DNA of 64,000 bases from Candidatus Hermodarchaeum yapensis (lineage in GTDB: Archaea > Asgardarchaeota > Hermodarchaeia > Hermodarchaeales > Hermodarchaeaceae): the NCBI GenBank assembly GCA_016840405.1, contig JAEOSK010000009.1:1-64000 (forward strand), in the 5' to 3' direction. The position numbers and the translations under genes are program-made. The notes below the pieces were generated by a model. That model ran no database searches and was not told the origin of the DNA. It was given only the letters and a program-made list of their open reading frames with translations. Positions 19,833 to 54,499 of this stretch are shown one piece after another; position 1 is the first letter of the stretch; every line of letters begins with the position of its first letter.

Positions 19833-21936
19833 TTGAAACGTGATCAACGTTTTAGAGAATTATTACAGCTAATGACTAATCCTGATAATATCCGGAATAT
19901 TGGGATAATTGCACACATAGATCATGGAAAAACCACACTTACTGACTCATTACTTGCTAATGCTGGACTGCTCTCATCAAGTCTTGTGGGTCAAGCACGG
20001 GCATTAGATTTCCTTGAAGAAGAGCAACGTCGAGGAAACGTAATTGCGAATTATCGCAGACGCCTCAATAACGATAAAATCTGCTAACATATCATTGCTC
20101 CATGATTATCAGGGAAAGCGCTATGTGGTCAATTTAGTTGATACTCCAGGACATATCGATTTTAGTGGGAAAGTAACCAGGGCCATGCGTGCCATTGATG
20201 GCGCTATTGTTGTCGTAGATGCAGTAGAGGGAGTAATGGCACAAACAGAAAGTGTAATTCGATCAGCAATCAAAGAACGAGTTCAACCAGTTCTATTCAT
20301 TAATAAAATTGATCGATTAATTCGGGAACTAAAGCTTTCAGCACACCAAATTCAGGAAAAACTAACGGAAATAATTCAAGAAACCAATAATGTTATCGAA
20401 GTAGCATTCGAATCAGAAAATGACTTTGATTGGACTGTGAGCACCCAAGCCAACACAGTTGCTTTTGGTTCTGCACTTCATAAATGGGCTTTCACAGTCG
20501 AGCAAATGAAAAAAGAAAGCCTTCATTTTAAGGATATCATAGAAAGTTATCAGAACAACGAATATGAAAAATTAATCGCTCTGCTCCCCATTCATCTACC
20601 AATCCTGAATATGATTTTAGATCACCTTCCGTCACCAATTAAAGCCCAATCATATCGTACCAAATATATTTGGAAAGGCGATCTTCAATCCCCAGCCGGA
20701 GTTGCATTGCGCAGCTGCAAACCGGAAAACCCTCTTTTTATTGGGATTACAAAAATCGTTACCAAATCAAAGCACGGTCCTGTGGGAGTTGGTCGTATTT
20801 TTTCAGGCACCATTAGAAAAGGGTCTCAAATACAGGTTTTCCCATCAGACCAACTACACAAAGCTCAACGGATAACTTTGTTCATGGGTGCTCGACAAGT
20901 CGTTATTCCTTCTTTGACTGCAGGTAACATATGTGGGATAATCGGTCTTGAAGATATTCAAGCGGGAGATACAATCACTGGGCAAAATATTCCTCAAGGT
21001 ATGGTTTCATTTGAAGAAATCACTTATGCTAGCGACCCCGTTGTGACCATCGCAATAGAGCCAAAACACCCTAGGGAACTACCACGATTGCTATCTCTTC
21101 TTGAAACAATTTCAAAAGGAGATCCTAATTTAATTTTTTCAGTAAATGAGCAAACGGGAGAGAATCTACTCTCAGGTTTAGGTCTATTACATTTAGAAAT
21201 CGCCCTAAAGGACATTGAGGAATTAGGAGTCCAAGTGGACGCTTCTGATCCAATTGTACTCTACCGTGAGACACCTAATACCAGCATCATAATGCCTGAA
21301 ATGCATCAAAGCCCAAATGAACAAAATGAAATAAAATTGGAAATCTCTCCCCACGACACCACTACTATTGAAGATGAGATAATGTATCAGGATAATCGGA
21401 ATAACTTGCTAACGGTTATTTCTTCAATATCAATTCCTGAATCAGATAGTACGTCGATAATCGCCGGTTTTAATTGGGCTATGGAAAGGGGTCCTCTCTG
21501 TTCAGAGCCTATGGGCCTTACACTCATCAAAATCACCGACATTAAACTCAGTGACAATTTAGCTGAAAGAGGAAGAGTAGAACTGATGTCCATGGTTAAG
21601 GAGGCAATTTTCAAAGCCTTTGAAGTAGGATCACCAACGCTTCTTGAACCAATATATACAATACAAGTAGTAGTCCCTAATGAATATTTGAAGAATATTA
21701 CAGGAGTTATTATTTCAAAACGTGGACAAGTTGAAAAAGTTGACCATAAAGAGATACTAGTGACAATAACAGGAGTACTACCTGTAAGTGAATCATTTGA
21801 TTTAGCTGATATTCTTCGATCAAAGTCCGCTGGGAAGGCAATTTGGCAAACGAAGTTTTCTCATTGGAAAGTTATACCAAGTCAGCGGGCTAAAACCATA
21901 ATATCAGAAATTAGGAAAAGAAGAGGTCTAAGTTGA
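19833..21936 (+). CDS. EF-2 paralogue GTPase, interrupted by a 31-nt intron
   Basis: Translation-elongation-factor-2-like GTPase, predicted 690 residues after removal of 20038-20068. G1 is AHIDHGKTT (about 26-34). Switch I RRG-ITIKSAN is restored only by splicing. DTPGH and NKID follow, with domains II-V ending in a typical EF-2 C-terminal region. In domain IV the diphthamide motif (HRGPAQ in archaeal EF-2) is replaced by ERGRVE, so the modified histidine is absent. Asgard archaea are known to carry a second EF-2 lacking diphthamide, which this matches. Read without splicing, the gene breaks into frames of 84 and 630 codons. TTG start at 19833 with GGAG 11 nt upstream. Confidence 0.88.
20038..20068 (+). 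other. BHB intron in EF-2 paralogue mRNA
   Basis: 31 nt, not a multiple of three, carrying an in-frame stop for one side. Flanks fold as a bulge-helix-bulge: GAGG (20032-20035) pairs with CCTC (20063-20066). The 3-nt bulges are AAA (20036-20038) and AAT (20067-20069). The intron stem is CGT/ACG plus TGCGA/TCGCA with loop ATTA. Cutting after the second base of each bulge joins GGAA to TAACG and yields codons GGA ATA ACG ATA (G-I-T-I), exactly the conserved switch I. Confidence 0.85.
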
Positions 21937-54402: not shown

Positions 54403-54499
54403 GCGGAGTTGGCGGAGCGGTAACGCGCTGGACTCGAGATGACCGAGTCATCCAGTGACCTTCGTGGTCGCAAGGGTTCAAATCCCTTACTCCGCGCCA
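54403..54499 (+). tRNA. tRNA-Ser (CGA) with 11-nt intron
   Basis: Acceptor GCGGAGT/ACTCCGC, G discriminator and encoded CCA. Anticodon stem CTGGA/TCCAG; anticodon CGA at 54435-54437; a long variable arm (GTGACC...GGTCGC) fits Ser. The anticodon loop holds an 11-nt intron (54439-54449) after G37. Confidence 0.92.
54439..54449 (+). other. Canonical-site tRNA-Ser intron
   Basis: Eleven nt between positions 37 and 38. CTCG of the loop pairs with CGAG of the intron; bulges are AGA and TCA. Cutting AG|A and TC|A gives loop CTCGAGA. Unusually short; a relaxed BHB without an intron stem. Confidence 0.8.

Follow-up and report, generated by a model that had tools for sequence, protein, structure and literature searches.

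How can a translation factor be made from a gene that changes frame part of the way through its coding sequence? At 19833-21936(+) of the window (the whole 64,000-nt stretch of DNA analysed here), the ORF list placed an EF-2 paralogue that is open in two frames, with 31 extra nucleotides between them. The source genome, labelled G000, is a 2.7-Mb metagenome-assembled genome (MAG) of the archaeal phylum Asgardarchaeota.

The interrupted gene and the structure of the insert

Exon 1 (19833..20037, +) was taken from the ORF list; it ends in ...LEEEQRRG and matches residues 1-58 of relatives. Exon 2 (20069..21936, +) is an open frame that runs from ITIKSANIS... to a stop codon at 21934-21936, and its product shared 64-69% identity with those of the sister genes across residues 55-676. 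The two frames and the surplus of 31 nt are real, as originally described. When the gene is read without splicing, translation terminates at 20085-20087; excision of the 31 nt produces a single frame of 677 aa from a conserved ATG at 19872, or 690 aa from a TTG at 19833. This upstream TTG is likely the start codon, because the G001 gene has an ATG at the matching place and the aEF-2 profile match begins at residue 3. Calling the host an EF-2 paralogue was apt, since its protein scored 682 bits against TIGR00490 (the aEF-2 equivalog), under the curated cut-off of 738, the diphthamide motif HxDxxHRG is absent from it (LSDNLAERG stands where LHEDPxHRG is expected), and another, eEF-2-like EF-2 is encoded in the same genome. 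The solved structures closest to the host protein were those of EF-2, and a quick EF-2 tree joined the four genus members in one group with full support. Segments of the window were also syntenic with G003 by tblastn, a comparison too noisy for listing frame breaks.

The two frames could in principle be two genes, with exon 1 encoding a short peptide and exon 2 a protein with its own start, as an in-frame TTG at 20044 would open a 630-aa ORF. That codon, however, lies inside the insert, in surroundings that are not conserved as coding sequence, and the relatives encode a single continuous protein. In addition, the division would separate the P-loop from the remainder of switch I within the G domain, so that neither half would be a GTPase. 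We consider two genes very improbable. A group I or group II intron or an intein was excluded, given that the insert is 31 nt long, out of frame and without an Rfam match; a similarity to snoU30 in Rfam (23 bits against a cut-off of 45) was regarded as chance.

The predicted intron (31 nt, ACGTAATTGCGAATTATCGCAGACGCCTCAA) occupies 20038..20068(+), within the range of 20028-20073 given by the original prediction, and its excision restores both the conserved switch I and the frame. A central helix of 4 bp, present in four of four genomes, pairs GAGG of exon 1 (20032..20035, +) with CCTC of the intron (20063..20066, +). Next to it lie the 5′ bulge AAA (20036..20038, +) and the 3′ bulge AAT (20067..20069, +), both invariant in the four genomes, and an intron hairpin (20039..20062, +) with stems 20039-20042/20059-20062 and 20046-20049/20054-20057 and a loop at 20050-20053. 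The splicing endonuclease EndA cleaves 3-nt bulges between their second and third nucleotides, which places the expected cuts after 20037 and after 20068. Applied to the sequence (GGAA|...|TAACG), this rule produced the junction RRG|ITIK and regained the frame in all four genomes, bearing out the claim that standard cleavage gives the conserved EF-2 sequence.

The region had also been described as a textbook bulge-helix-bulge (BHB), a claim that held only in part. The GAGG/CCTC helix, the AAA and AAT bulges and the intron stem stood, and a 4-bp central helix, 3-nt bulges on opposite strands and a closing intron helix were found in all four genomes. The outer exon-exon helix (CGU/ACG), in contrast, pairs in G000 only, with 50% of its cells paired versus 94-100% in the other helices; the canonical hBHBh′ form is thus missing in three of the four genomes. 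Given this lack of conservation, the motif is of the relaxed HBh′ form and not a textbook hBHBh′. The outer helix sets the canonical subtype, not membership of the BHB family, and relaxed hBH and HBh′ motifs are recognised members of that family (PMC6379350). With the outer helix gone in three of four genomes, the motif is predicted to depend on an enzyme with relaxed specificity.

Sister genomes and the splicing enzymes

The original prediction had proposed an alignment with sister genomes as a check, and the result was favourable. G001, G003 and G004 have inserts of 31 nt at exactly the codon base interrupted in G000, and excision gave the matching 677-aa product, counted from the conserved ATG, in all four. 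The three sisters are at near-saturation divergence from G000 at synonymous sites; the insert sequences differ among the four genomes and the loop is variable, while the helices are kept. Specifically, the central helix GAGG/CCUC became GGGG/CCCC in two genomes, an A-U to G-C double change whose exon side is the third codon position of an arginine and whose partner lies in the intron. Similarly, the inner stem changed from GCGA/UCGC to GCGG/CCGC. Across the four genomes, 94-100% of cells in the intron hairpin were paired, with compensatory and G-U changes, and pairing occupied 98% of cells in register versus 27-46% once the partners were slid. Covariation relative to column shuffles was modest (43/500), with four sequences only. 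Shuffled inserts satisfied the BHB rule at the junction in 0/4000 cases in G000 and in 0-2/4000 in the sisters. The fold energy of the region was unremarkable (z = -1.8; 10 of 200 shuffles folded equally well), and the remarkable feature is a BHB whose register matches the frame-restoring junction exactly, not the fold energy. Using a covariance model of the EF-2 paralogue intron (R1), we found it only in the four genomes of genus g1 among the 228 genomes searched.

The G001 gene was read from two contigs (C47 and C86; L033/L034), both of which end inside the EF-2 paralogue and share 127 nt that span the intron. These contig ends, together with the MAG origin of the data and an unspliced frame that stops soon past the insert, would suit an error of sequencing or assembly, or a pseudogene in decay into which 31 nt had been inserted at random. 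Such an origin is hardly credible for four separate genomes in which a 31-nt insert of different sequence occupies the same base. The exons are moreover conserved and the pairing is kept: the spliced gene had Ka/Ks values of 0.09-0.16 among the four genus members, where computable, and the exons evolve under purifying selection.

The genome also encodes the enzymes that splicing would call for. Two PF01974 (EndA) proteins, an alpha in which the catalytic His and Lys are present and a beta that lacks the His, make up a predicted heteromeric EndA. RtcB lies in two contig-end pieces (G000:C74:10768-11895 and G000:C61:3858-4367) that overlap at family residues 263-365, and the sister genomes hold a whole RtcB. 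About ten tRNAs of G000 bear introns, of 11-55 nt. The window itself contains a tRNA gene of 97 nt (54403-54499, +), which ARAGORN read, depending on the setting, as an intronless Leu(GAG) or as a Ser(CGA) with an 11-nt intron. An earlier study connected relaxed motifs in pre-mRNA introns with a hetero-oligomeric EndA (PMC2738675). Once transcribed, GAGG of exon 1 would pair with CCUC at the 3′ end of the intron, and two 3-nt bulges, one per strand, would remain next to the small intron hairpin. The heteromeric EndA, with one catalytic and one degenerate subunit, would cut each bulge 3′ of its second nucleotide, and RtcB would ligate the exons to restore switch I and the full frame. We infer cleavage, ligation and translation of the spliced product from sequence. 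The 31-nt insert is almost certainly an intron removed by tRNA-splicing enzymes.

Predicted introns in EF-1A, canonical EF-2 and DnaG

Further introns were sought by a PF00009 search combined with a BHB scan. The EF-1A gene of G007 has two BHB introns of 29 and 31 nt (G007:C10, about 75365-75395 and 75524-75552, minus strand; L175), whereas that of G006 is intact. In family f2, a break in the P-loop of EF-1A lies at GHIDHG|KST in G049, G160 and G158, where the central helix is AUGG/CCAU, and G160 alone passed the strict test at this position; in G161 and G151 the gene is broken at different positions close by (family f2 loci L312, L314 and L316, also L313 and L315). This amounts to about five EF-1A intron sites in Asgard MAGs. 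In families f22 and f24 (G089-G111), the EF-1A matches were weak or in several pieces, and these genes may hold more introns.

The intron of the EF-2 paralogue is not unique, as a second EF-2 intron is present in the canonical EF-2 elsewhere in the phylum. The EF-2 genes of G011, G052 and G047 (family f5), which encode the diphthamide motif, carry a 29-nt BHB intron at TPGHV|DF (L035:2936-2964(-), L036:3505-3533(-) and L037:2212-2240(+)), and the interrupted gene is the only long EF-2 found in each of these genomes. G027 belongs to the same genus and lacks the intron. When 228 genomes were searched with a covariance model of the intron (R2), it was recovered only in three genomes of genus g6; two intronless EF-2 exon stretches also gave weak matches.

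DnaG contains a BHB intron of 28-31 nt in all eight genomes of family f1 (G000 and seven others), with the junction GGCCTAC|TCGG, which restores FGQTEGL|LGEDLDLREL. In G000, this intron measures 28 nt (G000:C11:6934-6961; L212:935-962), and both the BHB and the restored frame were observed; in the other f1 genomes it occupies the same site (L193, L211, L213-L217). A second DnaG site, FGQ|TEGL, lies ~10 nt upstream of the f1 site and is used in families f2, f5 and f10 (L207-L210; G011, G016, G008 and G017). The strict BHB rule held there for G016, and G008, G017 and G011 passed a looser rule only. Split DnaG matches were also seen in several further f2 genomes. In the genomes searched of families f3, f4, f6, f7, f8, f11, f12 and f13, DnaG was uninterrupted.

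These inserts also bear on whether the frames of the EF-2 paralogue could be joined by +1 programmed frameshifting through the insert, which would add ~10 residues in switch I. Since 31 equals 1 modulo 3, one +1 shift would suffice. The variable stretch would, however, fall inside RGITI, which is invariant in EF-2 relatives, and the inserts of the other genes (28, 29, 31, 32 and 33 nt, some with stop codons) fit no single shift. Frameshifting would also leave unexplained why the helices are conserved together with the cutting rule, and we give it scarcely any chance. The original proposal of an endonuclease-spliced BHB intron is instead supported by the shared site and compensatory changes in four genomes, by purifying selection on the spliced frame, by a cutting rule that gives the conserved protein, by the presence of EndA and RtcB in the genome, and by introns alike in form, placed exactly at frame-restoring junctions of three other genes, for which intronless homologues served as controls. 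We therefore hold it to be highly probable that the mRNA of the EF-2 paralogue has a BHB intron spliced by EndA and RtcB, one of several in Asgard core genes.

Such introns are rare. A permissive BHB scan returned hundreds of chance structures, which were discarded. A stricter scan of ~670 kb of family f1 gave 430 BHB-like structures in a coding context, and among these a homologue in another genome, gap-free across the spliced junction, was found only for the EF-2 paralogue, DnaG and EF-1A, if one intron is not counted again in its alternative register. The homologue test is blind to in-frame introns, and introns common to every compared genome may escape it. BHB introns in protein genes number few per genome, which bounds the false-positive rate of the argument.

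Intron 1 of the G007 EF-1A gene (GCCTAC|ACTTCATATCACACGATATGAAGGGGTAA) could be aligned over its full length with the DnaG introns, including six exon bases before the cut; the G000 DnaG intron in that alignment reads GCCTAC|ACTTCATATCACAGATGTGAAGGGGTAA. A covariance model built on the DnaG and EF-1A set (R3), searched against 226 genomes, had convincing matches in no gene but these two. Weak R3 matches in five other genomes (E 0.01-0.45) were treated as chance, the BHB scan yielding no convincing intron there. The near identity of the EF-1A and DnaG introns suggests transposition, and the simplest reading of the alignment is that one was copied into the other gene at a matching site. The similarity could, less probably, reflect convergence, as part of it (GGGGUAA versus GCCUAC) is imposed by pairing.

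The presence of introns in some genomes and their absence from related ones fit near-neutral elements. This pattern matters for the claim that splicing would gate production of the translation factor, according to which the intron is kept for regulation and splicing efficiency sets the level of the EF-2 paralogue. All four genus genomes in which the gene was detected do have the intron, with a partly conserved sequence. The conserved bases, however, are mostly those constrained by pairing or coding, and the contrasts elsewhere (EF-1A in G007 versus G006, EF-2 in G011 versus G027) look like those of near-neutral elements. The gate went unsupported, and we regard a regulatory role as unlikely. 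With a second, eEF-2-like EF-2 encoded in the genome, translation may not even depend on the EF-2 paralogue. Altogether, we consider it likely that Asgard core genes (EF-1A, EF-2, the EF-2 paralogue and DnaG) harbour a standing, turning-over set of BHB introns at many conserved-motif sites, with spread between genes.

Relation to known splicing systems and significance

Work by Watanabe in 2002 and Yoshinari in 2006 reportedly described an intron in the cbf5 pre-mRNA of Crenarchaeota. By 2009, splicing of archaeal pre-mRNA had been confirmed only for this gene, in this group (Yokobori 2009, PMC2738675). The Asgard introns resemble that of cbf5 in being short, out of frame and located in a protein gene, with a BHB-like motif that is often relaxed, and in their association with a hetero-oligomeric EndA and with gain and loss between relatives (PMC2738675). 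They differ in their host genes (the EF-2 paralogue here, and EF-1A, EF-2 and DnaG in relatives), in phylum, in occupying many sites and in one apparent transfer between genes; moreover, cbf5 splicing is proven, whereas splicing of Asgard protein genes is deduced from sequence. The insert also shares with archaeal HBh′ tRNA introns the 4-bp central helix, two 3-nt bulges, an intron hairpin and a similar length. Its host, unlike theirs, is an mRNA, so no tRNA fold keeps the exons together. Group I and II introns and inteins likewise interrupt conserved motifs of core genes, but they have a catalytic RNA core or an in-frame domain and span hundreds of nucleotides, against 31 nt here. tRNA introns are abundant in some Asgard genomes (PMC11291895), and, in a provisional search of the literature without preprints and most subscription papers, we found reports of tRNA introns only and none of BHB introns in Asgard protein genes. 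The mechanism is known. As far as checked, novelty lies in the host genes and phylum, in the number of sites and in the apparent spread.

Introns in Asgard EF-1A, EF-2 and DnaG would show endonuclease-type splicing of mRNA to be more widespread. The affected genes are phylogenetic markers, and gene callers would miss such introns, leaving EF-1A, EF-2 or DnaG truncated or apparently absent. With near-identical introns in EF-1A and DnaG, the transfer of introns from one protein gene to another becomes open to test. On present evidence, Asgard BHB introns are not ancestors of spliceosomal introns. Their occurrence in the phylum closest to eukaryotes nevertheless bears on how far any mRNA splicing was tolerated before the spliceosome and, if true, would mean that the lineage nearest to eukaryotes has a second mRNA splicing system, one based on protein enzymes.
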